A stretch of DNA of 59,547 nt from Bifidobacterium breve (GTDB lineage: Bacteria > Myxococcota_A > UBA796 > SXON01): contig CALQBK020000006.1 in the NCBI GenBank assembly GCA_943328795.2, forward strand, positions 1 through 59,547, written 5' to 3'. Of this stretch, positions 2 to 14,826 are shown in pieces. The notes beneath the pieces were generated by a model, which did no database searches, was not told the origin of the DNA, and saw nothing but the letters and a program-made list of their open reading frames with translations. The position numbers were made by a program, and so were the translations under genes. Position 1 is the first letter of the stretch; the number at the start of each line of letters is the position of its first letter.

Positions 2-499
2 CTAGCGGTGTGGGTCCAGGGGTGCTCGGTCCGGTGCCCGGGGTGCTGCAACCCGGAGCTGTTCGGCGCGACCGGCGGGCGCAGCATCGACGTTGACGCG
101 CTGGCCACCGAGGTCGAAGGCAGCGCCGGTGTCACGATCCTGGGCGGCGAGCCCCTGGACCAGGCCGCGGCGGTGACGGCGCTCGCCCGTGCGGTACGCG
201 CGCGCGGGCTGACCGTCATCGTCTTCTCCGGCTACCCCCGCGCGGAGGTCGAGCACCGCGCCCCCGGCCTGCTCCGCGCGGTCGACGTCCTGGTGGACGG
301 GCCGTTTGACGCGCGCCAGCCTGAGCGCGCCGCGCCGCAGCCGCGACGCTGGATCGGCTCACAGAACCAGGGGCTCCACTTCTTGACCGACCGCTACGGG
401 CCGCGCGACTTCGTGGGCGCCAACACCGTGGAGCTGCGCATCGCGGGCGGCGTCCTGACCGTGAATGGCTGGCCAACCCCACGGGCGGAGCGGCGATGA
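2..499 (+). CDS. Radical SAM activating-enzyme-like protein (5' truncated)
   Basis: The open frame enters from the left edge, so the true start lies outside the window; the GTG at 8 is only the first in-window start-like codon. The visible N-terminus reads VWVQGCSVRCPGCCNPEL. This gives the CX3CX2C cluster motif typical of short radical SAM activases such as anaerobic ribonucleotide-reductase activators. A glycine-rich GGEPLDQ segment follows, matching the family's GGEPL S-adenosylmethionine motif. About 164 residues are visible, close to the family's usual size, so few residues should be missing. Its stop overlaps the start of the next gene (ATGA), which supports one operon with the unknown 348-aa protein and the FtsH-like protease downstream. 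The role in this locus is inferred: it could modify or activate a partner protein. No glycyl-radical enzyme is visible here. Confidence 0.8.
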   Translation, partial: LAVWVQGCSVRCPGCCNPELFGATGGRSIDVDALATEVEGSAGVTILGGEPLDQAAAVTALARAVRARGLTVIVFSGYPRAEVEHRAPGLLRAVDVLVDGPFDARQPERAAPQPRRWIGSQNQGLHFLTDRYGPRDFVGANTVELRIAGGVLTVNGWPTPRAERR

Positions 500-1542
500 T
501 CACCGTCCGGGAGCGGGACTACGAGCTCGTGCTGCTCGCGCGAGCGGTGGTCGGCGCGGGGTCCGCGCAGGCCGCGGCGCTGCTGCGGACCCCCCGGGCG
601 TCGGGCCGCGTCGGGAAAGGCGGGCAGCAGGGGCCGGGGCTCTCCCCGCTGGGCGTCCAAGCGCTCGAGCGGACCTTTGGAGTCGGCATCGTCCGGGCCC
701 TCGCGCGCGGGGGCGGGGCGAGAAAGGAGCACCTGGGCGGCCGCTCCGGGCGGCTTTGGGAGCGCCACGCTGCGCCGAAGCTCGCGGTCACGGAGCTGCC
801 CGTGGAGGTGCTCCAGTGGTGCCTCGCCGAGCCGCTCGGGTTGGTGAGCCGGGCACCCTGCACGGTACACGCGGCGACGGAGCCCGCGGACATCGCGGTG
901 GTCTACCTCCTCGCGCGGCTGCTCGTGGCGGAGGGGCTTGGCCACGTGCTCGAGGAGGAGGTGTTCGCCGCCAACCCGCTCGTGCACCTCGCGTTCGCCG
1001 ACCGGCTGGCCGCCGCGCGCCGCACCGGCGGGGAGCGCCGAACCACCGGAGCCAACCCGAGCACGGCGGACGCGTTCACCGCGTTCCTCCGGCGCGGCGC
1101 GCTGCTGGTCGAAGCCTTCGCCGCGTGGCTCGCTACGGACATCCTCCGCGCCGACCAGCCTGCGGCGAGCGTGAGCGACGCCATCGCGATCTCGGCCCGT
1201 CGTCGCGCCACCTACGAGGCGTGGCTGCTCGCCTGCGAGCGCTCCGGCCGGCTCGACCTCGCGCTGCCCCTCGTGGACGCCGCCGTCGCCGCGATGCGCA
1301 AACCGGCGCCCCCGGTGCTCGACGAGGGCGCGTCGCTGCGGGACCGCGCGGAGGCCGCCCGCGGCGGAAACGTGATGTGCGAGGTCGTGCTGCGGCTCAC
1401 GCGCCACCTCGACGTCCTCGGGACCCTTGACTTCTTCGACGACGGCTACGCGGAGGCCGTCGCCTTGCGCGCGCGCTGGGCGCGGCTCGAAGCCGCGCGG
1501 CCGGTGGCCGAGGCGCGCACCCTGGCTGCCGCGGGAGTGTGA
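496..1542 (+). CDS. Unknown 348-aa protein, likely accessory protein of the FtsH-like locus
   Basis: This begins with ATG overlapping the stop of the radical SAM gene. The protein is rich in Ala, Arg and Leu and appears mostly helical, with no signal peptide, membrane segment or enzyme motif that I can recognise. A Gly/Arg-rich, probably flexible stretch lies around residues 30-80. The rest alternates hydrophobic and charged residues, as in an alpha-helical scaffold. Its place between a radical SAM activase and an FtsH-like AAA+ protease suggests one of the family-specific accessory proteins (fvmX-type) of the FtsH/vWA/MoxR ternary systems. That is an inference from gene order, not from a recognised domain. 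The coding frame itself is secure because it is long and coupled to its neighbour. Confidence 0.75.
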   Translation: MITVRERDYELVLLARAVVGAGSAQAAALLRTPRASGRVGKGGQQGPGLSPLGVQALERTFGVGIVRALARGGGARKEHLGGRSGRLWERHAAPKLAVTELPVEVLQWCLAEPLGLVSRAPCTVHAATEPADIAVVYLLARLLVAEGLGHVLEEEVFAANPLVHLAFADRLAAARRTGGERRTTGANPSTADAFTAFLRRGALLVEAFAAWLATDILRADQPAASVSDAIAISARRRATYEAWLLACERSGRLDLALPLVDAAVAAMRKPAPPVLDEGASLRDRAEAARGGNVMCEVVLRLTRHLDVLGTLDFFDDGYAEAVALRARWARLEAARPVAEARTLAAAGV

Positions 1543-1568
1543 ACCAGGCGCCGGGTTAGGCCCCGCCC

Positions 1569-1964
1569 ATGCTCCGCGCTCCCCTCTTGGTCCTCGCCAG
1601 CCTCTGCCACCTCGGTGGGTGCTCGACGACGGCGACAACAGCAACGACGACCCCGACGACGCCGGCCGACCCCTGGGCGTCTGTGCAGGTCGCCGAGGGC
1701 GCCGCGCATGACGCCGTAGCCCCGCCCCCGTTTCGAAACGCCGCTGGGCAGATCGCGTGCCCGGTGATGGGCTTGGCCATCGCGTCCGCGGCCGACGCCG
1801 TCTCCTACGCCGACCACGAGGGCGTTCGCTACTACTTCTGCTGCGACAGCTGCGAGAAGCTGTTCCTCGAGGAGCCCGCCACCTACGCGAACGGGAAGTA
1901 CCTCGCGGAGCACGCGCTCGACCCCACGGCTGCGCCAAGCTGCTCGGACGCTCCTCCCGGGTGA
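1569..1964 (+). CDS. YHS-domain lipoprotein
   Basis: This 131-aa protein opens with a hydrophobic signal segment ending in HLGGC, a plausible lipobox. A Thr-rich linker follows, and then a C-terminal YHS domain. The domain shows the CPVMG start at about residue 62 and later YYFCCDSC, matching the CPV(C/M)G ... YYFC pattern of YHS/TRASH-like small metal-binding modules. Such proteins bind heavy metals or accompany metal-transport and redox enzymes; here the substrate is unknown. It is predicted to sit in the periplasm, anchored to a membrane. It is an unexpected neighbour for the presumably cytoplasmic proteins on both sides, so it may be a passenger gene rather than a functional member of the locus. 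Confidence 0.8.
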   Translation: MLRAPLLVLASLCHLGGCSTTATTATTTPTTPADPWASVQVAEGAAHDAVAPPPFRNAAGQIACPVMGLAIASAADAVSYADHEGVRYYFCCDSCEKLFLEEPATYANGKYLAEHALDPTAAPSCSDAPPG

Positions 1965-1986
1965 GGAAACGGGGTAAGCCCGGGGC

Positions 1987-2556
1987 ATGAGCCGCGCCTA
2001 CCGCATCCAAGTCTCCGAGGGTGTTCAACGCATCGTGCACGTCGAGGACGGGGTGCAAGGCAGCATCGACGTGCTGCCCATCCTCGCGCCCGAGCGGATG
2101 GCCGAGCTGCTCGCGGCCGAGCTCGAGAAGCGCGGCTACGTCCGCACGGACCAAGACGGCGAGCTCGTGCTGGTGAAGGTCGGCGACGACAACGTCACGG
2201 TCGAGGTCAACGTGCGCACGGGCACCGTGACGGTGAGCATCGCGGAGGACGTGCAGGTGGACGTCACCACCACCGCGACGGGCACGGCGGAGAGCGTCGA
2301 AGCAGCGCGTCAGCAAGCTGAGCGGATGGCGAAGCAACAGCTCGAGGCTGCGGTTGGGCCGTTGCGAGAGGCCGCGAGGCGCGAGCTGACGGCGAAGCTG
2401 GAGGCCGAGCTGGCGGAGATCCGGCCAGAGCTGGACGCTGCGGTGAACGCGGCGACGGCGGACGCGCTGGTGGAGAAGGCCCGCGAGCTCGGCGACATCG
2501 AGTCGATCGAGGGCAGCGCCGCCGACGGTAACCTCACCATCAAGGTGCGAGTCTAG
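1987..2556 (+). CDS. Unknown 189-aa protein beside FtsH-like protease
   Basis: The first half (residues about 1-100) looks beta-rich, with alternating Val/Thr strands including a repeated TVEV...TVTV pattern. The second half (about 105-170) is a long charged Ala/Glu/Arg helix likely to form a coiled coil, ending in a short strand. No catalytic motif is visible. Size, architecture and the position directly before the FtsH-like protease fit the small X-domain proteins of FtsH ternary systems; I recall the X5-type as similar but cannot confirm it by alignment. The stop lies 7 bases before the GTG of the protease gene, so the two are probably co-expressed. It may act as an adaptor or substrate-recognition component, which is inference. 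Confidence 0.75.
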   Translation: MSRAYRIQVSEGVQRIVHVEDGVQGSIDVLPILAPERMAELLAAELEKRGYVRTDQDGELVLVKVGDDNVTVEVNVRTGTVTVSIAEDVQVDVTTTATGTAESVEAARQQAERMAKQQLEAAVGPLREAARRELTAKLEAELAEIRPELDAAVNAATADALVEKARELGDIESIEGSAADGNLTIKVRV

Positions 2557-2563
2557 GTCCCCC

Positions 2564-4645
2564 GTGTCCATCTCCATCCCCATCTCTGAGCTGCCCCAGT
2601 CGCTCACGCCGTTCGAGGCCGTCGAGGCCGCGTACCCCGCGGAGCTCGCCGCGATCGTCGAGGCCCTGCGTGCGGACCTGCCCGTGCTCATCGAGTGTGA
2701 CAAGGGCCTCGGCCCCTACCTGTGGCGCTGCATCCGGGACCGGATCAAGGCCGCAGGCCTGCAGTCCGTCTACCTGAACGGCAGGCCGGACCCGACCGCG
2801 CCGCCGAACCCGCTGGCGGGCGGGATCGTGGCCACGATGATCGGCCAGCTCCGCGACGCCGTCCGCGGCGCGACTGAGCACCGCGTGATCGTGATGCCCC
2901 ACCTCGACCTGCTCACCACGAGCCAGGGCGGGCTCACCGCTGAGGCCCGCGAGGTCATCCCGCTGTTGTACGAGAACCCGATGCTCGTGTGGGTTGGGTT
3001 CAAGGACCCGTCCATGCCGCTGCCCCGGGTGATCGAGAGCCTGTTCCCGCGGCGCGTCTCGATCCTCGGGATCAGCCGCGATCGGCTCCGCTACCTGGTC
3101 ACCCAGCGCGAAGCCCAGAAGTTCGGGCGCGCGTTCAACCCCTACGGCCTGTACACGTTCGTCTCCGGCCTGCACGCCGCGCGGCTCCGCCGCGTATTGC
3201 CGGCGATCCAGGGCGAAGACTTCCCCCCGAACCCCCGGCCGGCCTACGACCAGCTCCGGCAGGCCACCCAGTCCACCGATGTCGCCGTCCCGAACATCGA
3301 CCTGGAGGCCGACATCGGCGGCTACGCGGCCGTGAAGAAGCGCTTGCGGTCCGAGATCCTCGACCTGCTCACCGAGCGCGCGAAGCTCGACAACGCCGAC
3401 GCCATCACGCGCGTCGAGCAGCTGATCCCGCGCGGGATGATCTTCTGGGGCCCCCCGGGCACCGGCAAGACCCTGTTTGCGAAGGCGATGGCGACTGCCC
3501 TCGGCGCCGCAGTCACCATCGTGAGCGGCCCGGAGCTCAAGAGCCGCTGGGTAGGCGAGAGCGAAGAGCGCATCCGCCAGATCTTCGTCCAGGCCCGCCA
3601 GGCCGCGCCCGCCATCATCGTGTTCGACGAGCTCGACAGCTTCGCCACCGCGCGCGGGACCTACACCGGCAGCGGCGTCGAGCACTCGATGGTGAACCAG
3701 CTGCTCACCGAGATGGACGGGTTCCGCCGGAACGAGATGGTGTTCGTCGTCGGCACCACCAACTTCCCGGAGTCGCTCGACCCCGCGTTGCTGCGGCCCG
3801 GCCGTTTCGAGTTCCAGCTGCACATCCCCTTCCCCGACGGAAACGATCGCCGCGCGATCCTCGGCGTCTACGACCAGAAGCTCGGCCTGCAGCTGACGGA
3901 GCGGGCCCTCGAGTACGCCGTGCGCCGCACGTCCGGCGTGGTGGAGGGCGGCACGAGCCGCTTCTCAGGGGACCACCTGCAAGCGTTGGCGCGGAGCATC
4001 GCGCGCAGGCGGATCCGCGAGCAGCTCACCGGGCCGACCGACGTGCCCGACGTCGAGCACGCGCTCACCGCGCACTTGGACCTCCCCCAGCTCACCCCGA
4101 CCGAGGAGCGGGTGGTCGCCACTCACGAGGCCGGGCACGCGATCTGCGCGCTCCACTGCGCGCACGCGCCGCCCATCGAGCGGATCAGCATCCGCGGCGA
4201 CCTCGTCGGGGCGCTCGGGTTCGTCCAGTACGGCGACCAGGCCCACAAGTACGTCACGACCCGGAACCAGCTGATCGACCACGTCTGCATCCTGTTCGGC
4301 GGGCGCGAGGCGGAGGAGCTCTTGCTCACCGACCTGTCGATCGGCTCGGCGCAGGACCTGGAGCGCGCGACGGGCATCGCGCGTGGGCTCGTCGAGCAGC
4401 TCGGGATGGGCTCGGAGGTGCGCGTGTGGCCGGAGGCGGAAGGGCGACACCCCGAGCGGGAGCCGTCGGACGCGGGGAAGCAGCGCATCGAGCGCGAGGT
4501 GCTGGAGCTCCTCGCCCGGGAGCGCCAGCGCGCGAAGACCCTGCTCGTGGAGCACCGCGTCGAGGTCGAAGCGCTGCGGGACCTGCTGCTTGAGAAGAAG
4601 GTGCTCGACCGCGCCGCGATGATGAGCGTGATCACGCCCGGCTGA
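2564..4645 (+). CDS. FtsH-like AAA+ ATPase / M41 metalloprotease lacking a membrane anchor
   Basis: The 693-aa protein has an N-terminal region of about 260 residues that looks like a degenerate AAA-like module. A classical AAA+ domain follows: Walker A GPPGTGKT near residue 296, Walker B IIVFDELD near 351, and a second region of homology around 397-416 ending in LLRPGRFE. The C-terminal peptidase domain has HEAGH at 521-525 and a probable third zinc ligand Asp at 598 in the AQDLERAT context. These are the active-site features of M41 FtsH proteases. Unlike housekeeping FtsH it shows no N-terminal transmembrane segment, so it is probably cytosolic. The start is GTG at 2564. FtsH-like proteins of this kind form the protease arm of FtsH/vWA/MoxR ternary systems; the other ATPase arm is not in this window. 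Confidence 0.92.
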   Translation: MSISIPISELPQSLTPFEAVEAAYPAELAAIVEALRADLPVLIECDKGLGPYLWRCIRDRIKAAGLQSVYLNGRPDPTAPPNPLAGGIVATMIGQLRDAVRGATEHRVIVMPHLDLLTTSQGGLTAEAREVIPLLYENPMLVWVGFKDPSMPLPRVIESLFPRRVSILGISRDRLRYLVTQREAQKFGRAFNPYGLYTFVSGLHAARLRRVLPAIQGEDFPPNPRPAYDQLRQATQSTDVAVPNIDLEADIGGYAAVKKRLRSEILDLLTERAKLDNADAITRVEQLIPRGMIFWGPPGTGKTLFAKAMATALGAAVTIVSGPELKSRWVGESEERIRQIFVQARQAAPAIIVFDELDSFATARGTYTGSGVEHSMVNQLLTEMDGFRRNEMVFVVGTTNFPESLDPALLRPGRFEFQLHIPFPDGNDRRAILGVYDQKLGLQLTERALEYAVRRTSGVVEGGTSRFSGDHLQALARSIARRRIREQLTGPTDVPDVEHALTAHLDLPQLTPTEERVVATHEAGHAICALHCAHAPPIERISIRGDLVGALGFVQYGDQAHKYVTTRNQLIDHVCILFGGREAEELLLTDLSIGSAQDLERATGIARGLVEQLGMGSEVRVWPEAEGRHPEREPSDAGKQRIEREVLELLARERQRAKTLLVEHRVEVEALRDLLLEKKVLDRAAMMSVITPG

Positions 4646-4742
4646 CCAGTCCGTAGCGGGGCGCACCGCCGGCGTAGTGCCCGGGATGCCCGTCCAGGGC
4701 GGCCCGAGGCTGCGTGGTATGCTCGGAAGCGTCGAAGGAACC

Positions 4743-5585
4743 ATGCTGAACGTCCTGTTCAAGATCAACGACAAGCTGGTCCCGAAGCAGCACAGGGCGG
4801 GCCTGCGCGACGTGTACGACCGCGGCGACTACTACTGGTCCCGGCTCACCCAGCGGCGGGACATCTTCACGCAGGTCGAGATCGAGACGAACACGAACTG
4901 CAACCGCAAGTGCCGGATCTGCCCGCGGCACAAGCACGAGCGCGAGATCGGGTTCATGCCCGACGCCCTCTACAGCCACCTGCTCGACCAGCTGGCGTCG
5001 ATCGGGTTCCGGGGCCGGCTGTCGCCGGTGTTCTACAACGAGCCGCTGATGGACCCGCGGATCTTCCGCCTGATGAAGGAGGCGAAGGAGAAGCTCCCGC
5101 GCACCAACATCGTGCTGTTCACCAACGGGTCGTTGCTGACCAAGGAGAACATCGAGGAGCTGGTCGAGGCCGGCGTCGACACGCTCCTGGTAAGCCAGTA
5201 CGAGGGCAACCTGCGGGCGGACGAGGAGACGTACGTGGACGCCGCGCGAGACGTCTCCCCGCGGGCCCGGAAGACCATCCGGTACCGCACGCTCGGGGAC
5301 GAGGACTTCTTGTCGTCCAGCGGCGGGCTGGTGCGGGTGAAGAAGCCCGTGACGAAGTCACGGTGCATGCAGGCGTCGCTCTCCTGCGTCGTAGACTTCC
5401 GCGGGGACGTCGTGCTCTGCTGCAACGACTACAACGGGAACCACGTGTTCGGGAACGTCGGCAAGGAGCACATCCTCGACATCTGGAACAAGCCGGAGTT
5501 CAAGAAGCTGCGAAAGCAGCTTCGGCACGGAGACTTCCAGCTCGACATCTGCAAGACCTGCGCGGCGGGCGGCGTGCCGGCCTAG
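4743..5585 (+). CDS. Radical SAM/SPASM protein
   Basis: I chose ATG 4743 because GAAGGA lies just upstream at good ribosome-binding spacing; the frame is open to GTG 4677. The 280-aa protein has the radical SAM cluster motif CNRKCRICP near its N-terminus. The C-terminal SPASM-type region runs from CVVDFRGDVVLCC through LDIWN to DICKTC, supplying cysteines for auxiliary iron-sulphur clusters. SPASM enzymes modify peptides or small metabolites; the substrate here is unknown and no small precursor peptide is obvious beside it. Its TAG stop overlaps, inside the palindrome CTAG, the TAG stop of the convergent FG-GAP gene. It lies about 100 bases after the FtsH-like gene, so membership in that operon is uncertain. 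Confidence 0.88.
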   Translation: MLNVLFKINDKLVPKQHRAGLRDVYDRGDYYWSRLTQRRDIFTQVEIETNTNCNRKCRICPRHKHEREIGFMPDALYSHLLDQLASIGFRGRLSPVFYNEPLMDPRIFRLMKEAKEKLPRTNIVLFTNGSLLTKENIEELVEAGVDTLLVSQYEGNLRADEETYVDAARDVSPRARKTIRYRTLGDEDFLSSSGGLVRVKKPVTKSRCMQASLSCVVDFRGDVVLCCNDYNGNHVFGNVGKEHILDIWNKPEFKKLRKQLRHGDFQLDICKTCAAGGVPA

Positions 5586-8503
5586 CGCACGGCCGTGCGC
5601 TGCGGCTGCCGCCGTCTCCGGGACACGGCAGCGACGCAGACTGCCAGCCCGACGAGCCCCGCGCGCCCAGCGCCGCCGGTCGCACACCCCGCGCACCCCG
5701 GGGGATCCACCGTCCCCCCGTTGGCGTCGCCCCCGGAGTCGGAGTCCCCAGGGGGCGCGGAGTCTTCCGCGGTGTCCATGGGCGCGTCGTCGGCGCCGTC
5801 ACAGTCTTGGTCGATGCCATCTGCGGGGACCTCGGTCGCGCCAGGGTGGATGGCCGCGTCCGCGTCATCGCAGTCCGCGCTCACGCTTGCCGGCGCGTAG
5901 CCGTCCGGGGCGACGCATGCGACCACGGAGCTGCCCGGGTCTGTGTACCCGTCCGCGTCGGCGTCCGCGTAGTAGGCCTCCGACGGGCGGCCTGCGCCCG
6001 CATCGCCATCGTCGCAGTCTTCAGAGGCGCGCACGCCATCCCCGTCGGCGTCCGAGTAGCCCTCGTAGAGGTACACAGCGTGGTCCCGGTCGAGGTAGCT
6101 GCTGTCCGACGCCAAGAGGTCCGCCCACCCGTCGCCGTTCACGTCCCCCGCCGCGACGACCCGCGTGCCGAGGTGTCCGGCGCCGAGCAGGACCTCGGCC
6201 CCCGCCGTGCTCACTCCGTCGGCGGAGCCGTGCAGGACCGTCACGGATCCAACGCCGTCTGCGCCCGGCGCCCCGATCGCGACGTCATCGTAGCCATCGG
6301 CGTCCACGTCCCCGATCCCGGCGACCGCGGTACCGAACCCCTCCCCCGCCGCTCCCCCTCCCAGGTCGAGCGCAGCGGAGGTCGAGATCCCAGCCGCCGA
6401 CCCGAGGTAGACGTAGGCGCGACCGGCGTCGTCGTCCGCTTCCGGCGCCCCGACGACGATGTCCGCGAAGCCGTCGCCGTTGACGTCTCCAGCGGCCGCG
6501 ATCGCCTCGCCGAAGCCGTCGCCGAGGGCGTCCCCTGCGAGGGTGGTCCCCCAGGGTCGCGCGAGCCCCGACGAGGAGCCCGCGTAGATGTACACCTTCC
6601 CCACGCTGTCGCCGATCCCGACCAGCAGCTCGTCATACCCATCCCCGTCTACGTCCCCGGCGCCGGCGAGCGCCACAGCGTCGTGGTGCAGGACGGGCAG
6701 GAACGCGGCGCTGCGGGCGTCCGGGCCGGTCCGCCCGCCGGGGTAGACGATCAAGAGGCCGCCACGACTGGCGTTCTCATCCGAGACCACCAGGTCGTCG
6801 AAGCCGTCGCCGTTGAAGTCGGCCCCCGCCGCGAGGAGCTGCCCGAAGTAGTAGCCGGAGCCCGCGGTCAGCTTCACCCCGGAGGCGCTGGAGATGCCCA
6901 GCGCAGACCCCGCGTAGAGGTAGGCCGCGCCCGCGACGCTGTCCGCGCGGTAGGCCGTGACGACGAGGTCGTCGAACCCGTCGCCGTTCCAGTCCCCGCC
7001 GCCGGCCACTGCGAAACCGAACCGGTCCTCGACCTCGGCGCCGGCGAAGGTCGCGCTCGCGGTGCTCGCCAGGCCGATCGCGGAGCCGAGGAACAGCGAC
7101 GCAGCGCCCGTGTTGCCGTGCTCGCCGTACGCGCCGATCACCACGTCGTCGTACCCATCGCCGTTCACGTCGCCCGCGGGCGATGTCGCCATCCCGAGGC
7201 GATCGTCGCTGTGCTCCACCTGGACCACGCTGGAGAGGTCCGCGCTGGCGGACCCGGCGAACACCCAGACAGCCCCTGAGTTCTCACCGAATTGCGGCGA
7301 CCCAACGGCGAGATCGGCGTAGCCGTCCCCGTTGGTGTCGCCAGCCCGGGAGAGCCGGTCGAGAGACTGATCGGAGGCGCCCTCCGCCGTCCACGCGGCA
7401 GTGGTCCCGACGCCCGAGGGCCCTCCGAGGTGCACGAACACCGCCCCGACGTACTGGTTCCGCAGCGGCGCGCCGATGGCGACGTCGTCGCACCCATCTG
7501 CGTTGACGTCTCCGAGCCCGGCCAGCAGCTGGCCGAAGCCCTCGGACGCGCTGCCGACGAGCGTGGACAACGGGGCTTCGCCGAGCCCGGAGGCGGAGCC
7601 GGAATACACGGCAGCGGTCCCCGCTGTCCAGCTGAGCAGCACGTCGTCGAACCCGTCGCCGTCCACGTCCCCCGCTGCGGCCGCGCGGGGATCGCTGTTC
7701 CGAGGGCCGGCCACCGTAGATGCCGGCGACGACTCCATGCGCGTCGCCGCGCCCCCAAACACCGCGAACGTGCCGTCCCCGTCCCCCACCAGGACGTCGT
7801 CGAAGCCATCCCCGTTGACGTCCCCAACGCCGGTCACCGAGGCGCCGCCGTAGCCCTCGAGCGTCGTGTAGGACGACTCGGTGACCCCGACGGGGGAGCC
7901 GTAGTACACGTACGCGTCGTCGGCGTTCACAGCACCGACTACGAGATCGTCCCAGCCGTCCCCGTTCACGTCCCCCGCGCCCGAGACCGCCCCGCCGAAC
8001 GTGCGATCCTGCGTGAGCGTGACGTCCGGCGACGCGCTCAACCCGGATGGGCTGCCGCGGTAGACGAAGGCGAAGCCGGGCTCGACGTTCGCCGTGGTGC
8101 CACCCACGACGACGTCTGCGTAGCCGTCTCCGTCCAGGTCCCCGACCCCGGCGATCGGCCCGCCGAAGTCGAGGTCCTCCACGGGGGACTCCAAGACGCT
8201 GAGCGCCGTGTCCGAGACCCCGGCGGCGGTGCCACGAAGCAGGTAGACGCGGCCGTGCGAGGTGCTGGACGCCAACACGTCGTCGAACCCGTCGCCGTCC
8301 ACGTCCCCGGCGGCAGCCACGTAGTTGCCGAAATTCGGGACGAACGCCCCGACCGAGCCCAGGCTCCAGTTCGCCACACCGTCGGGCGGGGCCAACGCGA
8401 CGGCCTGGCGACCGATCGGGTCTTCCGCCGGCTTCTCGGGCGCGCGTGCACACCCGACAACGACGACGACTGCGTAGAGCGCCAGCCAGCGCGTACAAGA
8501 CAT
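5582..8503 (-). CDS. FG-GAP repeat lipoprotein with MopE-type metal-binding repeats and MYXO-CTERM-like tail
   Basis: This 973-aa protein begins with a signal segment ending in VVVVGC, a good lipobox. It then carries roughly a dozen integrin-alpha-like FG-GAP repeats, each with a calcium-loop signature such as AGDVDGDGFDD or GDVNGDGYDD. These would fold as beta-propellers. Near the C-terminus two CDD-containing repeats end in IDQDCDGADD, which matches the putative copper-binding MopE-type motif. The last 40 residues (GCAGCATGG, a hydrophobic stretch, then RRRR) resemble the MYXO-CTERM sorting signal of Myxococcota. The protein is almost certainly displayed on the cell surface. Having both a lipobox and a C-terminal sorting signal is noteworthy. 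It may be expressed from its own promoter in the 32-base gap after the amidinotransferase gene or by read-through. Confidence 0.92.
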   Translation of the reverse strand: MSCTRWLALYAVVVVVGCARAPEKPAEDPIGRQAVALAPPDGVANWSLGSVGAFVPNFGNYVAAAGDVDGDGFDDVLASSTSHGRVYLLRGTAAGVSDTALSVLESPVEDLDFGGPIAGVGDLDGDGYADVVVGGTTANVEPGFAFVYRGSPSGLSASPDVTLTQDRTFGGAVSGAGDVNGDGWDDLVVGAVNADDAYVYYGSPVGVTESSYTTLEGYGGASVTGVGDVNGDGFDDVLVGDGDGTFAVFGGAATRMESSPASTVAGPRNSDPRAAAAGDVDGDGFDDVLLSWTAGTAAVYSGSASGLGEAPLSTLVGSASEGFGQLLAGLGDVNADGCDDVAIGAPLRNQYVGAVFVHLGGPSGVGTTAAWTAEGASDQSLDRLSRAGDTNGDGYADLAVGSPQFGENSGAVWVFAGSASADLSSVVQVEHSDDRLGMATSPAGDVNGDGYDDVVIGAYGEHGNTGAASLFLGSAIGLASTASATFAGAEVEDRFGFAVAGGGDWNGDGFDDLVVTAYRADSVAGAAYLYAGSALGISSASGVKLTAGSGYYFGQLLAAGADFNGDGFDDLVVSDENASRGGLLIVYPGGRTGPDARSAAFLPVLHHDAVALAGAGDVDGDGYDELLVGIGDSVGKVYIYAGSSSGLARPWGTTLAGDALGDGFGEAIAAAGDVNGDGFADIVVGAPEADDDAGRAYVYLGSAAGISTSAALDLGGGAAGEGFGTAVAGIGDVDADGYDDVAIGAPGADGVGSVTVLHGSADGVSTAGAEVLLGAGHLGTRVVAAGDVNGDGWADLLASDSSYLDRDHAVYLYEGYSDADGDGVRASEDCDDGDAGAGRPSEAYYADADADGYTDPGSSVVACVAPDGYAPASVSADCDDADAAIHPGATEVPADGIDQDCDGADDAPMDTAEDSAPPGDSDSGGDANGGTVDPPGCAGCATGGAGRAGLVGLAVCVAAVSRRRRQPQRTAVR

Positions 8504-8535
8504 TTGAGCCCCGAGGTTGCCCTACTCTACACCAT

Positions 8536-9654
8536 TTAGAAGTACGACTCCAAGGTCCCCCGCCGCCGCACGTCGAGCGTCGCGCAGTGCAGCCCGGCCC
8601 CGAACATCTTGTAGTGCACAAACGGGCACGGCACCGGCGTGAAGCCCCACGACTCGAACGCGCGGATCAGCGAGACCTGCTGCTCTTCGACCACGACACG
8701 TTTTGGGTCGAGCATGAACACGTTCAGCGAGATCCAGTCGCCCGCCAGCAGCAGGTACGAGTTCAGGCCGCTCGCCTTCACCGGGTCCGGCCGCGGGGGG
8801 ACCAGGATGTCCCACTTCTTCAGCATCGGCGGCAGCATGTCCGGGTCGATGAACTCCGGGTTGATCATCATCTTGCCCGGCGCCAGCGGGATCAGCGTGG
8901 TGTCGATGTGCTGCGGCTTGCGCTGCTTGGTCTCGACCTGGTGCACCCGGTAGGCAGGCCCAAGGTGACGGCGCAGCCACTCGATCCCGACCAGGTTCGT
9001 GGTGTTGCTCCGGATGACGAACAGGTCCCGGCCGCAGCGCGTGAAGTCGGCGGCGTCGAGCATCGGCTCGTTCTCGGTGATCGCGTAGCGCATCGGCTCG
9101 CCCTCGCGCGGGGGCGTGAAGTCATAGTTGTACGAGTTGTCGTCCAGCCGGGGGCGGGGTGCCGCCGACCAGCGCGCGCCGCCGCGGAAGTACTCGTTCA
9201 GCAGGTTGCGGTAGCCGAACATCTCAAAATAGCGGGAGCGCCAGGCGCCGGCGGTCTCGATGATGTGATCCCCGACGACGAGCAAGCCGTCGCGCGGGCT
9301 AGCGGTGCAGAAGCCGGTGGAGCTCCAGTCGGGGGTCTTGAACCGCGCGCCGAGGTTCAACGGGTCGGGCCGGCGGACCCGCACGCCCGCTTGCGTGAGG
9401 ATCTCGACGAAGCGCTCGACCTCCTCCGTCGCCCGGTTCACGACGTAGCTGGGGTAGTGCTTGCCCGCGCTCGCCCGGCCAATCATGGCCCCGAGCGTGC
9501 TCAAGCCCCACACCCGCTCCGCGATGTGCCGCGTCGGGAGCATCGCGCCCGTGACCCGGCCGACGATGACCTCCTCGAGCGGGTCCCACTCGTTGTACGA
9601 GCACACCGGCGCGTCCTTCGCGACCTCGGGAACATCAAGCACAGGCATCTCCAC
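8536..9654 (-). CDS. L-arginine amidinotransferase (AGAT / StrB-like family)
   Basis: The 372-aa sequence closely matches the arginine:glycine amidinotransferase fold. It contains DAADFTRCGRD with the conserved Asp, HIDTT with the catalytic His, and GLHCATLDVRRRGTLESY with catalytic Cys at residue 357. This family moves the amidino group of arginine to an amine acceptor such as glycine (guanidinoacetate), or to sugar or toxin precursors in secondary metabolism. The acceptor cannot be read from sequence. The start is GTG 9654, preceded by GGGAGGG at proper spacing; ATG 9648 is an alternative. It is the third gene of a minus-strand run with an M50 protease and a UPF0104 membrane protein, 18 bases after the latter. 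Neighbours give no clear pathway. Confidence 0.93.
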   Translation of the reverse strand: MEMPVLDVPEVAKDAPVCSYNEWDPLEEVIVGRVTGAMLPTRHIAERVWGLSTLGAMIGRASAGKHYPSYVVNRATEEVERFVEILTQAGVRVRRPDPLNLGARFKTPDWSSTGFCTASPRDGLLVVGDHIIETAGAWRSRYFEMFGYRNLLNEYFRGGARWSAAPRPRLDDNSYNYDFTPPREGEPMRYAITENEPMLDAADFTRCGRDLFVIRSNTTNLVGIEWLRRHLGPAYRVHQVETKQRKPQHIDTTLIPLAPGKMMINPEFIDPDMLPPMLKKWDILVPPRPDPVKASGLNSYLLLAGDWISLNVFMLDPKRVVVEEQQVSLIRAFESWGFTPVPCPFVHYKMFGAGLHCATLDVRRRGTLESYF

Positions 9655-9672
9655 TCGGCCCTCCCGTATCCC

Positions 9673-10566
9673 TCAAGCCGATGGCCGCGCCATGCGCCAG
9701 AGCTCGACGCCCCCGCCCAGCAACACGAACACGGCGAACGTGCCCGTGAGCGCGATGGCCGCGGCGTCCGCGGCGGGCCCCGGGACCAACACCATGCCGA
9801 GGCTGCTGATGGTGAGCTCGCGCACGCCAAAGCCGCCGACCGTGACCGGGGCGATCTGGGCGACAGACGTGAGCGCACAGACCACGGCGCCCGCGGCGAA
9901 CGAGATCCAGTACCCGACGGCTCCGAAGCAGGCCGAGAACACGAGCGCGAACGCCGTGTGGGTCACGATCGCCAGCAGGAACGCGAAGCCCAGGTCACGC
10001 AACGCCGGGAACTTGCCGACCGGCAGCCGGGTCGCCACCACGCGGGGCAACGCGGCTGGGCCGATCTTCAGCGCAAGGAGCCCGCCGACCCCCACCCCGG
10101 TGGTAGCCAAGAGCGCAGCCCCGCCGAGCGCCCGGTACAGCCCCTCGAACCCCGAGAACGGCAAGCACACGAGCCCGAGCCCACACGCGACCGACCCGCC
10201 GACGAGGCGTGCGCACAGGATCGACACCGCGACCGAGCCGGCGTCAGCGTCCCGCGAGAGCCGCACGCCCTTGAGCAGCTCGCCAGCGACGCCACCGGGC
10301 AACACCGACGACCAGAACACGCTCGACAGGTCGTGCAGGATCATCTCGGTGACGGAGACCCTGCCGCCAGCCTGGATCAGCAGGTGGCGCCACGCGAGCC
10401 CGTTCAGCAGCTGCCCGACGGAGTAGGCCAGGAGCGCGCCGCACAGCCAGCCACCCGCGCGCCACGAGGCCAACGCACCGAGGCCCGAGGTGTCCAGCCG
10501 GGACAGGAACAGCGCGCACAGGGCGACCAAGCCGAGCACACGAAGGACGGAGAGGACGTGCTTCAC
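9673..10566 (-). CDS. UPF0104 / lysylphosphatidylglycerol-synthase-type membrane protein
   Basis: The 297-aa protein has about eight hydrophobic segments. It also carries the family's conserved pattern, including VFWSSVLPGGVAGELLKGVRL and the later IAPVTVGGFGVRE loop. These are the hallmarks of the flippase-like transmembrane region of LPG synthases (UPF0104/AglD2), without the catalytic cytoplasmic domain. It therefore probably flips or handles a lipid or lipid-linked substrate rather than aminoacylating one. I chose GTG 10566 because a longer frame would run well into the upstream M50 gene, whose stop lies 11 bases before this start. A second paralogue is present at 56791-57813. Confidence 0.85.
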   Translation of the reverse strand: MKHVLSVLRVLGLVALCALFLSRLDTSGLGALASWRAGGWLCGALLAYSVGQLLNGLAWRHLLIQAGGRVSVTEMILHDLSSVFWSSVLPGGVAGELLKGVRLSRDADAGSVAVSILCARLVGGSVACGLGLVCLPFSGFEGLYRALGGAALLATTGVGVGGLLALKIGPAALPRVVATRLPVGKFPALRDLGFAFLLAIVTHTAFALVFSACFGAVGYWISFAAGAVVCALTSVAQIAPVTVGGFGVRELTISSLGMVLVPGPAADAAAIALTGTFAVFVLLGGGVELWRMARPSA

Positions 10567-10577
10567 GACGCCGAGCG

Positions 10578-11420
10578 CTACAGGGCGGCGAGGATGTGGT
10601 GCGTCTCGGTCATGGCGGTCGCGAGGAACAACACGAGCCCAAAGTACGCCGTGGTGATCAGCATCCGCTGCCACGGCGTGCACTCAAAGTAGCGCTGGCT
10701 CGCCGGGTTGTTCCGGTTCTTGAACAGCCGGTACACGCGCGGAAGGCTGGTCGCGACGAGCAGGAGGATGTAAATCCCGGCCCCGGAGAGGTTGAGCAGC
10801 AAGTACGGCACGAGGATCACGATGCCGACGATCCAGAGCCACGGCGAGATGGCGGTCACCACCCGGCCGCCGTCGAGCGGGACGATGGGCACCAGGTTGA
10901 ACAGGTTCAGGAAGAACGCCGAGCTGGCCAGCGCAAAGTAGAGCGGGCTGCCGGTGAGCATCCCCATGACGAACACGACGAGCCCCCCGATCGTGCCGAG
11001 CAGCGGCCCACCGAACCCGACGATCGACTCGACCCACGCGTTCGCGGGCATCTCCTTGAGCAGGATCTGCGCCCCGAGGAACGGGATGAACACCGGTGCG
11101 GAGACCTTCAAGCCAAACCACTTCGCGGCCAGCGAGTGCCCCAGCTCGTGCACCAACAGCAGCAAGACGAACCCGAGGCCGAACTTCCAGCCGTACAGCC
11201 ACGCATAGGCGCCGATGGACAGCAACATGCTGCCACCCGTCTTCAAGACCAGCGGGAGGAACTTCAGCACCGGCGCCGCAAACTTGAACGTCGCGGCGAG
11301 CCCCCCGAGGAGGGGCGCGAGCATCTTTCGCAGCCCGGACGGCGGCTCGGGCTCAGCCCGCCGAGCCTCTTCGGGCTTTCGGGACAGCGAATCCCAGTTG
11401 AGTTCGTCGGCCATGTCCAT
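10578..11420 (-). CDS. M50 site-2-type zinc metalloprotease
   Basis: The 280-aa membrane protein carries LLLVHELGHSLAAK in a transmembrane helix (the HExxH zinc site). It also has NLVPIVPLDGGRV (the NPxxxxDG-type site supplying the third ligand) in a later helix. These define intramembrane site-2 proteases and SREBP-like M50 peptidases. A charged N-terminal tail of about 35 residues precedes the first hydrophobic helix. Such enzymes usually cleave membrane-bound regulators; the substrate here is unknown. ATG 11420 was taken, and ATG 11414 is equally possible. It appears to be the first gene of a minus-strand run with the UPF0104 protein and the amidinotransferase, and it is divergent from the 77-aa gene across 44 bases. 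Confidence 0.9.
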   Translation of the reverse strand: MDMADELNWDSLSRKPEEARRAEPEPPSGLRKMLAPLLGGLAATFKFAAPVLKFLPLVLKTGGSMLLSIGAYAWLYGWKFGLGFVLLLLVHELGHSLAAKWFGLKVSAPVFIPFLGAQILLKEMPANAWVESIVGFGGPLLGTIGGLVVFVMGMLTGSPLYFALASSAFFLNLFNLVPIVPLDGGRVVTAISPWLWIVGIVILVPYLLLNLSGAGIYILLLVATSLPRVYRLFKNRNNPASQRYFECTPWQRMLITTAYFGLVLFLATAMTETHHILAAL

Positions 11421-11464: not shown

Positions 11465-11698
11465 ATGGCACGCCTCACCCTCCAGCTCCGGGTCGATCCG
11501 GTCACGAAGAAGCGCGAGGTGCTGATCGGCTACGAGTCCGACAGCGACGCGCTCCCGATGGAGCACGAGGACGACCACAAGGCGCTGGTGCAGAGGGTGG
11601 TCGGGAAGGCCAGCGCGAGCCGCGTCCAAGCGAACGAGGGGCTGCTCGAGCCGGCGAGCGCCGCCCCGGTCGCCGAGGGGATCGAGCAAAAATCGTGA
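11465..11698 (+). CDS. Small 77-aa protein, possibly DUF2997-like
   Basis: The protein begins with two predicted beta strands (RLTLQLRVDP and REVLIGYESD), then an acidic turn and one helix (HKALVQRVVGK), and ends with a disordered Ala-rich tail. This small hairpin-plus-helix layout recalls DUF2997-type proteins found beside AAA+ ternary systems, but I cannot align it and the call is tentative. Its stop codon overlaps the GTG of the 1043-aa gene (GTGA), so the two are translationally coupled. That coupling is the best evidence that this short frame is real. Confidence 0.65.
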   Translation: MARLTLQLRVDPVTKKREVLIGYESDSDALPMEHEDDHKALVQRVVGKASASRVQANEGLLEPASAAPVAEGIEQKS

Positions 11699-14600
11699 CG
11701 ACCTGGCGGTTTCCAACGCTCGACGCGTTCCGAGCGGTGCTGTCGGCCTTGCCGACGGACCTGGTCGCCGGGCCGGTGCGCGCGGCGAGCGTCGACGGCG
11801 GGGTGGTCGTCGAGACCGCGTACGATCTCGGGCGGGTCGGCGCAGAGCCAGTGGCCGCTTCCGGCGACGCGACGCAGCGGTCCTGCTGGGCCGAGGTGCT
11901 CCCGCTGCGCCCAGTGCACGACGCCTCGCCCGCGCCGATGGCGCTGTTCGTCCTCGAGGCCCGCGGGGCGATCTCGGCGGAGGAGGCCGCCCTCGAGCTC
12001 GCGGGGGAGATGGTCCGGCTCGGCTGCGACCAGCAAGACCTGCTGCTGGTGCCGGCGCGGTCGGTGGCCGTGCTCCGCGTCGCCGGGCCGCCCTACTACA
12101 CGCTGCTGCGCGCGCTCGACGGTGGCAGCGTCCGCGCGTTCGTGCCCTCCGGCGGCGCGTGGGTGCAAGCGGGCTTCGCCCCGCCGACGTCGACGACCCT
12201 GCGGGCGACCACCGGGCAGCTCTTCCTCATCCCGGCGGCCAGCCCATGGACGACGCTGCCCGACGGCCCGTGGACCCCCCTCGGGCGCCAGGTGGACTTC
12301 CAGTTCACCGGGCCGACCCCCGAGCCGGCTGTCGCACCGACGCGCCGGCTCACGGTCCCGCTGCGCCTCGGGCGCGCCCCTACGCGGCCCGCCGCGCTGT
12401 GGATCTCGGACGACCCGGACGCGATCGACGCGCTGCTGCACGAGCTCCCCGAGGCGATCACGAGCCAGCTGGAGTTCGCCGTGCTGCCCGCCGTAGGGGC
12501 CCGGGAGCGGGTGATCCTCAGGACCCGGCGCGCCGCGCGGGCCGGGCAGGCTCCGCCCGAGCTCCCTGGGACCGCGTTCGCGGCGTCGGACTCCGTCCCA
12601 GGCCTGTTCCTGCCGGTCGGCACCACCATCGAGCCGCCCGTCCGCTCCGCGCGGCTGCGGGCGCTGCTGCACCCGCCCGAGGGCTCCGTCGCCTGGGTCG
12701 ACCCCGGGGCGGGCGCCGTGCACGTGCACTTCGTCACAGCGGACCGGTTCGCGCCGCTCGAGGACTGGGTCGACTACCTGCTCGACCGCGACGCCGACGT
12801 GCTGCACGCCTGGGTCCAAGGGGTACAATTCCGCTTCGACGCGCTCCGGGTGACCGAGGACGCCGCGCCCGTGCCGTCGGGCCCAGAGCGCAAACCCCGG
12901 GACCGCAAGGAGCGGGCTGAGCCGACGCCTCCTGCGCCCGCGCCGGTGGAGGCCGCGCCAGCGCCCAAGCCCGCGCCGAGGGGCACGCGCCCGACGGCCA
13001 TCCGGGTGGACCTTGCGCCGGGCGCGGCAGCGAAAGCGGTGGACGCGGCGGAGCGGGGCTTCCTCGCGCTCGACGTCCCAGGGGACGCGCCAGGGCGCGG
13101 CGCGATGTGGCACGAGCTGGCGCTTTTGTACGGCGCCGCCGGGCGGCCGAGGGACGCCGGGCTGGCCTGGGGGCGCGCCGCCTGGGCTGACTCCACCATG
13201 GCACCCGCGTTCGCCGAGGCGATGAGCACGCACGGCGCCGCGCCGGCGCTGCTCGCGCTGACCGAGCCGAGCCGCGACCAGGTGCGGGCGCTCGCGGCGC
13301 TCGCGCTCGTTGGTCAAGCCCCGCTCGCCGGGACGCGCGAGTGGCTCGAGCGCCACGGCCACGTGCTCGACTTGCGCACGTGGTGGCTCACCCAGGTCGC
13401 GCTCGCTGGCAGCGGCGCCGGGCGCGACGTGCTGCTGCTCGCTCGCGCGCGCGACCGCGTGTTCGCTGAGCTTCAACACGGCTTGCCGGCTGCCCGAGAG
13501 CTGCCCGCGTTCTTGCGCTTCTCCGGCGTCGGCAACGCGGCCCGCCTCGCCGAGCCGCTCGAGCGCATCCGGGGGCAGTTCTTCACCGCCAAGCGCAGCC
13601 GCCACGCGCTCGAGGCGCCCGTGGCGCTCACCCGCGTGTACGTCGACCTGGTGTTCGCGTGGGGGTTTGCGCGCCTCGGGGTCGTGGACCGCGCGGCCGA
13701 CCTGCGCACGCAGGCCATCGCCCAGCTCCCCGCGGGGGCCGACGCGATCCACCGGTTCTGCTCCAGCGGGCTCGCGGCCCGGATCACCCAGGCGATCGAC
13801 GGGGAGCCCTTCGGCGTGCCGCTGCCCCCCCCGATCGCCGCGCAGCTCACCGATCTCCCCCGCTTCGACAGGTACAAGGTGGATCGCCTGCGCCAAGCCT
13901 GCTCGATCCTCGAGCCCCAGGAGCGGCTCGACCCCATCCTCGGCTTCACGACGCGCGAGGCCGACGCGCGCGGCGAGGTGTTCGCCGCCCTGCGCGGCAT
14001 CGTGGACACCGAGCAGCTGAACACTGCGCTGGTCGGCATCCTCGGCGACGCGTCAACCCTCGCCGAGCAGCAGGCCGCGCGCCTCTACGATGGCGTGCTG
14101 GACTTCCTCCCCGCGCTCCCCGCGGGCGCGTTGGCCGAGCGCTTGGCCTACGTGATCGCCGCGATCGCCCCGCTCTCGACGCCCGTACGCGCCCCGCTCG
14201 CGGCGGAGGCCCTCGCGGTCGCGTCATCGGCGCGAGAGCTGGGCCTGGTCGAGCACGCGACGAGCCTCGTCGTCGAGAGCTTCACCGCGCTCGGGGGCAC
14301 GCACCCCACCGTGGTCCAGCACCTCGACGGCGTGCTGCGTAGCTTGCGCCGCGCGCGCCGGGCCGAGAACGCGCAGCCGATGCTCACGCAGCTCGTCTCG
14401 GGCGTCGGGGCCGTGACCCCGGGCGAAGACCTCGCCGCTCGGCTCGCGCTGGCCGGCGGGCTGCTCGCGATCGGGAGCCCGGAGCAGGCGCAGCCCGCGT
14501 TCACGGCGGCGTGGCAGCGCCTTGGGCAAGCGCCGTCGCTGGCCGACAGGATGTCCATCGCGCGGGGCCTCTCCCGGGCCCAGGCGTTCGCCAGCCCCGA

Positions 14601-14826
14601 GTCCGCCGTCGAGACCGCCCTGCGGCTCTTCGCCGCGATTGGGCCGGTCACCGACAGCTTCAACACGAACTCTCACTTCGCGATCTCGCTGGTCGAGTAC
14701 GCGGAGTGCATCGTCCAGGCGGTTGCCCACGAGGAGCTCACGCTCGGTGCGCGGGGCCTCGGCCTCGTCGAAGAGGACGAGTTCTTGCTCCGCCAACGCG
14801 TGCACCGCGACCTCGCCGGGGCGTAA
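11695..14826 (+). CDS. Unknown 1043-aa two-part protein coupled to the 77-aa gene
   Basis: The start is GTG 11695, overlapping the previous stop. Residues about 1-390 form a mixed alpha/beta region with no motif I recognise. A Pro/Ala-rich linker follows at about 400-440. Residues 440-1043 are strongly helical, with TPR/HEAT-like alternation, and form a probable scaffold. There is no signal peptide or membrane segment, so it is likely cytoplasmic. The gene pair lies about 7 kb from the FtsH-like locus. Large proteins with a unique N-terminal domain and a helical tail occur as effector or scaffold components of MoxR/vWA-type systems, so a link is possible but unproven. The frame is secure: it is over 3 kb long with consistent G+C-rich third positions. 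Confidence 0.8.
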   Translation: MTTWRFPTLDAFRAVLSALPTDLVAGPVRAASVDGGVVVETAYDLGRVGAEPVAASGDATQRSCWAEVLPLRPVHDASPAPMALFVLEARGAISAEEAALELAGEMVRLGCDQQDLLLVPARSVAVLRVAGPPYYTLLRALDGGSVRAFVPSGGAWVQAGFAPPTSTTLRATTGQLFLIPAASPWTTLPDGPWTPLGRQVDFQFTGPTPEPAVAPTRRLTVPLRLGRAPTRPAALWISDDPDAIDALLHELPEAITSQLEFAVLPAVGARERVILRTRRAARAGQAPPELPGTAFAASDSVPGLFLPVGTTIEPPVRSARLRALLHPPEGSVAWVDPGAGAVHVHFVTADRFAPLEDWVDYLLDRDADVLHAWVQGVQFRFDALRVTEDAAPVPSGPERKPRDRKERAEPTPPAPAPVEAAPAPKPAPRGTRPTAIRVDLAPGAAAKAVDAAERGFLALDVPGDAPGRGAMWHELALLYGAAGRPRDAGLAWGRAAWADSTMAPAFAEAMSTHGAAPALLALTEPSRDQVRALAALALVGQAPLAGTREWLERHGHVLDLRTWWLTQVALAGSGAGRDVLLLARARDRVFAELQHGLPAARELPAFLRFSGVGNAARLAEPLERIRGQFFTAKRSRHALEAPVALTRVYVDLVFAWGFARLGVVDRAADLRTQAIAQLPAGADAIHRFCSSGLAARITQAIDGEPFGVPLPPPIAAQLTDLPRFDRYKVDRLRQACSILEPQERLDPILGFTTREADARGEVFAALRGIVDTEQLNTALVGILGDASTLAEQQAARLYDGVLDFLPALPAGALAERLAYVIAAIAPLSTPVRAPLAAEALAVASSARELGLVEHATSLVVESFTALGGTHPTVVQHLDGVLRSLRRARRAENAQPMLTQLVSGVGAVTPGEDLAARLALAGGLLAIGSPEQAQPAFTAAWQRLGQAPSLADRMSIARGLSRAQAFASPESAVETALRLFAAIGPVTDSFNTNSHFAISLVEYAECIVQAVAHEELTLGARGLGLVEEDEFLLRQRVHRDLAGA

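Follow-up and report, generated by a model that had tools for sequence, protein, structure and literature searches.

FtsH ternary systems are a class defined by comparative genomics, for which a role in conflicts such as virus attack has been predicted (Kaur, Burroughs, Iyer, Aravind, 2020; PMC7159879). As described there, the simpler type combines an FtsH-type AAA+ protein with a MoxR protein carrying GXXXTAKS, a radical SAM gene and a divergent vWA protein with a helical N-terminal region. The paper terms the FtsH component a chaperone and its N-terminal unit an inactive AAA domain, gives a NEFF1 effector among the features of these systems, and in its main text does not mention M41, leucine-rich or WGR. 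A second paper (PMC10907252), in which the word FtsH occurs 0 times, deals with putative conflict systems that are related and have been diversified by retroelements. As far as our searches outside subscription journals reach, FtsH ternary systems are known only as predictions. Here we describe a locus at the left end of contig CALQBK020000006.1 (assembly GCA_943328795.2), a stretch of 59,547 nucleotides that was analyzed whole and is called the window below. The assembly (genome G000, in which the window is contig C6) comprises 4.79 Mb on 298 contigs and is 86% complete. It is close to certain that the locus belongs to the FtsH ternary systems of the simpler type. On balance we favor the reading that it is the larger part of one such MoxR-vWA system, with its MoxR-ivWA pair on another contig, and that it works as proposed below.

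Each of the four components named above for the simpler type has a counterpart in this genome. The window also encodes fvmX5, fvmX6, fvmX7 and fvmX3-analog proteins (X5, X6, X7 and X3-analog), whose Pfam families are named after FtsH ternary systems and all four of which score over cut-off (Table 1); Pfam describes fvmX5 and fvmX6 as FtsH ternary system domains. An earlier note on this DNA, made from its letters alone, had proposed a truncated FtsH/vWA/MoxR locus of five genes at 2-4645. All five genes exist, the left end is indeed a contig edge, inside the radical SAM gene, and the two proteins that the note could not name, of 348 and 189 amino acids, are X6 and X5, both over the Pfam cut-offs. 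The family assignment holds as well, given the fvmX matches and the presence of MoxR and vWA genes in the same genome. The extent was drawn too narrowly: because the X3-analog and X7 genes lie at 11465-14826, the system extends to 14826 rather than 4645. In named records, six relatives of the 189-residue X5 were found, all from metagenome-assembled genomes (three uncultured proteobacteria, two Myxococcales and one deltaproteobacterium).

Table 1. Features of the locus in the window and of the MoxR-vWA region on C82, another contig of this genome
Feature	Position	Strand	Evidence and remarks
Radical SAM protein (NrdG/Fer4_12-like)	2..499	+	Pfam Fer4_12 E 4.8e-22; 5' end clipped by contig edge; CxxxCxxC retained
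fvmX6 protein, 348 aa	496..1542	+	PF20004 E 4.5e-14, 52.7 bits (cut-off 27), residues 6-341
YHS-domain lipoprotein	1569..1964	+	PF04945 E 1.1e-7
fvmX5 protein, 189 aa	1987..2556	+	PF20003 E 6.8e-42, residues 1-189 (full length)
Soluble FtsH-like AAA+ M41 protease, 693 aa	2564..4645	+	AAA 292-422, Peptidase_M41 511-688; N-terminal domain without P-loop
Block between both halves	4677..10683	mixed	SPASM radical SAM (+), FG-GAP (-), 372-aa protein (-), LPG-synthase-TM (-)
M50 peptidase	10578..11420	-	PF02163 E 1.1e-14 (window copy); divergent from adjoining fvmX3-analog
fvmX3-analog protein, 77 aa	11465..11698	+	PF20002 E 2.6e-19
fvmX7 protein, 1043 aa	11695..14826	+	PF20005 E 4.4e-37, residues 2-364
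MoxR	C82 4737-5744		bpMoxR E 5.8e-61; P-loop GPPGTAKS; start picked by eye
vWA protein	C82 5741-7087		ivWA PF19997 E 3.9e-33; ivWA-helical_N PF19996 E 3.2e-8
TIGR02996/STM4015-like leucine-rich protein	C82 (L095) 7364-8485		after vWA gene

The ATPase and protease motifs of the FtsH-like protein are intact, as the earlier note had seen, with GPPGTGKT at residues 296-303, Walker B at about 351-356 and HEAGH at 521-525. GPPGTGKT, Walker B, HExGH and RPGRFE each occur in all 27 rows of this family, which come from 26 genomes or records. Rows used for motif counts, here and below, had a profile coverage of at least 75% and included the window, with some genomes represented twice and cut or interrupted copies left out. 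At least 90% of the rows conserve aspartate 598, by analogy with FtsH probably the third ligand of the zinc. The most hydrophobic 19-residue segment averages only 1.53, against 2.6 and 3.2 in the two ordinary FtsH-like proteins of the genome; therefore, no membrane anchor is seen, which also bears out the note. Motifs of other components are conserved too: all 17 radical SAM rows have CxxxCxxC, and the X3-analog has P-x-EHE in 22 and EHE-x2-H in 23 of 25 rows.

The protein shares with membrane FtsH (TIGR01241) the arrangement of AAA and M41 domains and the HExGH motif, but it has no membrane anchor and scores 275.8 bits against a cut-off of 600 with that NCBI model. In the pore region it reads WVGESE, compared with FVGVGA in the genome's FtsH-like protein L002. 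Its top solved-structure sequence matches are VCP-like ATPases, with FtsH next at 230 bits, and two tandem AAA-like units are suggested, as in CDC48/VCP (p97). Unlike p97, it carries an M41 protease, and its first unit has no P-loop: G4GK[ST] is absent from the first 230 residues in 27 of 27 rows. By pairwise score the AAA domain is roughly equidistant from the genome's two FtsH-like proteins (135 and 127 bits) and from L004 and L005, AAA proteins without a protease match (130 and 128 bits). An AAA-domain tree for an FtsH-like versus a CDC48-like origin had very long branches and was left unused. In a tree of 26 FtsH-like rows, the window genus forms one clade (100/100); among the families represented by several rows, five in all, f31 and f37 are each not a single clade, and thus descent is partly vertical, though not simply so. 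The FtsH-like gene of G282 (L060:10677-14225) contains an intein, with splicing and LAGLIDADG domains, inside the AAA region.

The components co-occur across the phylum. With Pfam cut-offs applied to 377 genomes of the phylum and 14 control genomes, X5 was detected in 38 of the 377, and ivWA, the family of the vWA protein, in 34, all of them among the 38 (ten more have weak matches below the cut-off). X7 was detected in 36 of the 38. X5, ivWA, X6 and X7 were over cut-off in none of the 14 control genomes; bpMoxR, with matches in 12 of these, is non-specific. The counts are not independent events, because the carrier genomes are related. The X5 genomes in which ivWA does not reach the cut-off are G307, whose contig breaks off inside a MoxR gene adjoining X7, G255, which is 65% complete, G183 and G169. 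X5 and ivWA are on one contig in 11 of the 34 genomes; in many of the remaining 23, the separation may be due to assembly alone.

We compared gene order in stretches from 28 of the 38 X5 genomes and two named records (30 in total, many clipped by contig ends), counting genes as neighbors when they stood in the stated order within 400 bases. The commonest order is radical SAM-X6-X5-FtsH-X3-analog-X7-MoxR-ivWA, and all eight genes are consecutive in L050. Among the 30, the pairs were found as follows: X5-FtsH in 24, MoxR-ivWA in 21, X3-analog-X7 and X6-X5 in 19 each, the radical SAM gene ahead of X6 in 18, FtsH-X3-analog in 16 and X7-MoxR in 14. In the genus of the window this order is broken up and the parts are retained. 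Other genes separate FtsH from the X3-analog in the window, L039, L041 and L044; in L040 the X3-analog is inverted and on the opposite side of the block; and in G127 the radical SAM-X6 pair has a separate contig of its own.

The MoxR and vWA genes of G000 were found on contig C82. GxxxTAKS is present in 23 of 23 MoxR rows, and the DxSxS motif of vWA is missing in 18 of 21 rows, the C82 protein among those 18. The earlier note had looked for this pair within about 10 kb upstream of the window locus, a region that lies past the contig edge in the window; our own profiles find neither gene in the 7.3-8.4 kb upstream of the radical SAM gene in L039, L040 and L041. As C6 ends inside the radical SAM gene and the C82 MoxR gene starts 4.7 kb from a contig end, the distance between the blocks cannot be read from this assembly. 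The closest relative is G087; there X5 sits 102 kb into a contig of 254 kb and ivWA 84 kb into one of 121 kb, so that the blocks are truly apart. Compared with the described systems (PMC7159879), the window genus differs in its unlinked MoxR-ivWA pair and in the genes that separate X3-analog and X7 from FtsH. MoxR, vWA and FtsH do not share a neighborhood in G000 or G087, where they occupy different contigs. In several more distant relatives, MoxR and vWA form a single run with the remaining genes. As the three share a neighborhood in genomes such as L050, we read the unlinked blocks as having been rearranged within the family.

The other four genus members (G087, G223, G269 and G127) have several genes around MoxR-ivWA in common. 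On C82 the shared genes come down to two, the leucine-rich gene and another whose cluster also occurs elsewhere. TIGR02996/STM4015-like genes were found near ivWA in G000, G087, G223 and G317 and ahead of the radical SAM gene in G334 and G303, and the leucine-rich protein is a candidate accessory part. Further proteins of this kind are at L097:10731-12101, L103:10043-11359 and L048:7434-10176, and some of the leucine-rich proteins carry a WGR domain. A second MoxR-like gene of the genome (L172:5233-7311, contig C202) is spread over more than one frame close to a contig end; it was set aside as a partner, since the contig, of 7.6 kb, has neither an X7 nor an ivWA match. The ivWA match of L107 (G221:C81) is split into three, which may mean that the copy is broken or the assembly wrong.

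Since both blocks co-occur even where they are unlinked, there is a genomic argument for one working unit, and the co-occurrence names the parts that could be purified together. In the working we propose, the soluble FtsH-like protein would assemble into a ring that uses ATP to unfold proteins and degrade them, an activity predicted from its motifs; given that each of the 27 rows keeps the M41 motif, degradation may be the output. The N-terminal domain without P-loop, X5, X6 and the small X3-analog may serve as docking or gating parts, and X7, with its long helical tail, as a scaffold. The MoxR ring and the divergent vWA protein could remodel or load the complex and set the time of firing, and the radical SAM enzyme might modify one component or a substrate. 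Physical interactions, the substrate, the trigger, the target of the radical SAM enzyme and a role in conflict are all what we infer. A bolder version, which we regard as unlikely, makes the eight genes one obligate machine: a cytosolic, p97-like tandem AAA protease, to which the MoxR ring would gate access via a vWA protein without metal-binding motif, and in which the radical SAM enzyme would arm the X3-analog (P-x-EHE-x2-H) as trigger. Here the X7-MoxR-ivWA trio would be an older core, reused in an FtsH-less operon described below.

Several observations weigh against the reading that we favor. MoxR and vWA do not adjoin the FtsH block in the window genome. X6 is over cut-off in only 23 of the 38 X5 genomes; some of the misses reflect a limit of the Pfam model, since in G269, which it misses, our own profile finds X6, and profile comparison links X6 with a divergent group, X6b, at a probability of 98.9%. 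In G169, X5 and FtsH are present, whereas ivWA, fvmX6 and fvmX7 are missing. Six genomes depart from the common order: X5 stands ahead of X6 in G255 and G282, G234 and G340 have an X5-X3-analog pair, ivWA is ahead of the radical SAM gene in G126, and in G363 the FtsH-X3-analog pair is inverted relative to the rest. Profile comparison did not confirm an AAA fold for the FtsH-like N-terminal domain, giving 0.1% against the second AAA domain. Structure models were built from 7 (FtsH-like) and 5 (X7) sequences and used for helix/strand order only. The FtsH-like model is poor (mean predicted local distance difference test score, pLDDT, 49.2); in it, residues 16-170 alternate helices and strands as in AAA, and Foldseek alignments with p97 extend over 537-574 columns with low TM-scores. 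The missing P-loop and this alternation agree with the inactive AAA unit described in the paper (PMC7159879), and against it stands the negative profile comparison. Among the titles and abstract openings that our searches outside subscription journals returned, none concerns experiments on FtsH ternary systems. A tblastn search with X5 against plasmids and phages gave no match, and the X proteins and ivWA matched no PADLOC model. PADLOC matched the AAA part to IetA and TRIP13 models, MoxR weakly to two regulator models, and the gene at 4677-5585 to viperin models (E 3.3e-7). With only such AAA-, regulator- and viperin-type models and no plasmid or phage match for X5, nothing independent points to defense.

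A housekeeping machine for protein assembly or quality control, rather than a conflict system, is a real possibility, short of an even chance; it would be comparable to RavA-ViaA. It would fit the detection of X5, ivWA and X7 in all 5 genus members sampled, the MoxR-ivWA surroundings common to the other four members and the lack of plasmid or phage matches for X5. Sequence identities between G000 and G087 also bear on it. MoxR (95%) and FtsH (92%) are on a par with a superoxide dismutase gene that lies downstream of X7 and has 83-90% identity to three counterparts and 83% in this same pair. Identity is 86% for X5, 68% for the radical SAM protein, 65% for ivWA, 63% for X7 and 56% for X6. The two motors are conserved like household genes and the partners drift, a pattern that fits both fast-changing recognition parts and plain weak constraint. 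Against a housekeeping role stand the fast evolution of several partners and a patchy distribution, with X5 in 38 of 377 genomes and over cut-off in none of the 17 genomes sampled from the family's other genera.

The set could also be a decaying remnant, broken up in the genus and losing function, as the several blocks in the genus, the foreign block in the window and the incomplete appearance of G169 might suggest. This is very unlikely: apart from the radical SAM gene clipped by the contig edge, the window frames are open and the motifs intact, the genus members keep both halves, and the radical SAM-X6 pair survives on its own contig in G127.

Still less credible is kinship with the DUF1257-DUF2997-Ycf46-like operon, with X5 corresponding to DUF1257, the X3-analog to DUF2997 and the AAA protein to Ycf46. 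The size pattern is similar and there is an AAA neighbor, the AAA parts match (99.7% in profile comparison; E 7e-19 to 4e-25), and DUF1257 occurs in 71 of 282 phylum genomes. It was found in 0 of 5 members of the window genus. Homology of X5, the X3-analog and the FtsH N-terminal domain to these proteins was not supported by profile comparison, which gave 0.4% for X5 and DUF1257, 0.2% for the X3-analog and DUF2997 and 0.6% for the N-terminal domains, against 99.7% and 98.9% for controls; our X5 and X3-analog profiles also find nothing in those loci. A deep kinship could be missed by this comparison, because it also failed to join the two FtsH-like halves. In L145-L164 we observed a conserved run of a protein of ~650 amino acids, an AAA protein, DUF1257, a small protein and a protein of ~250 amino acids; the AAA protein is presumably Ycf46-like and the small one DUF2997. 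That the genes are chance neighbors without joint function, as the interruption of the window copy by other genes might suggest, has a negligible chance of being right in view of the co-occurrence and common order in relatives.

Some genes within the interval appear not to belong to the FtsH ternary system. The earlier note found the YHS lipoprotein unexpected, and it is local to the window: it is absent between X6 and X5 in L039, L040 and L041, and X5 and X6 have other neighbors in G127. We rejected it as a system part because the genus members used for comparison have no counterpart in this place. The X6-X5 gap is 39 bases in L039, the nearest relative; in L040 and L041 it holds frames that by eye resemble other lipoproteins, of which the L040 frame has no YHS match and the L041 frame was not searched. 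The SPASM radical SAM gene at 4677-5585 was rejected on the same ground, with no counterpart there in genus members compared. Three genes of the 4677-10683 block were resolved by the gene caller (W_05 to W_07) and have no cluster partner in the other stretches compared; the fourth was uncalled and left out of the comparison. We judge this block to be outside the system, either inserted in the window or lost in the others. Its 372-residue protein (8536-9654, minus strand) has no Pfam match at E 0.001 and by eye looks amidinotransferase-like to us. A protein of the M50 cluster adjoins the X3-analog in 5 of 5 genus members (by protein cluster; the Pfam M50 search was run on the window copy only), which may reflect shared ancestry alone.

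X7 may point to a link with other ternary systems. Its model (mean pLDDT 56.5, low confidence) is beta-rich in the N-terminal part, with 33 helices counted from residue 442 onward; Foldseek listed helical repeat proteins, none at E ≤0.001. The window protein also touches bpX2, with 23.5 bits against a cut-off of 23.6. This and the bpMoxR-family MoxR resemble the beta-propeller ternary systems (PMC7159879), from which the present system differs in its FtsH-like protease and in a C82 vWA protein without a beta-propeller match.

We identified an FtsH-less MoxR operon in six genomes (L165-L170: G334, G231, G158, G234, G139 and G340). It starts with an X7-like protein of 526-565 amino acids that is over the fvmX7 cut-off in a six-frame search, with a lowest second-place score of 27.5 bits; searched as single proteins, L168 scored 29.4 and L166 41.5 bits, and L167 gave no match. 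Our X7 N-terminal profile finds four of the six (L166, L167, L168 and L170; E 7.5e-10 to 5.7e-14), and BLASTP of the window X7 against the L168 protein was not significant (E 0.076). As a control, the profile was run on 6,489 frames of other stretches, where matches stronger than 1e-20 were taken as X7 itself and left unlisted; among weaker matches, only the X7 frame of L109 came in at E ≤0.01. Four of the six operons continue with an ivWA-like protein (weakly matched in L165), and L167 has a HEAT protein. The operon is possibly a link between the FtsH and beta-propeller ternary systems. Elsewhere in the window, ARAGORN found a sole tRNA, tRNA-Arg (gcg), at 31782-31874 on the plus strand.

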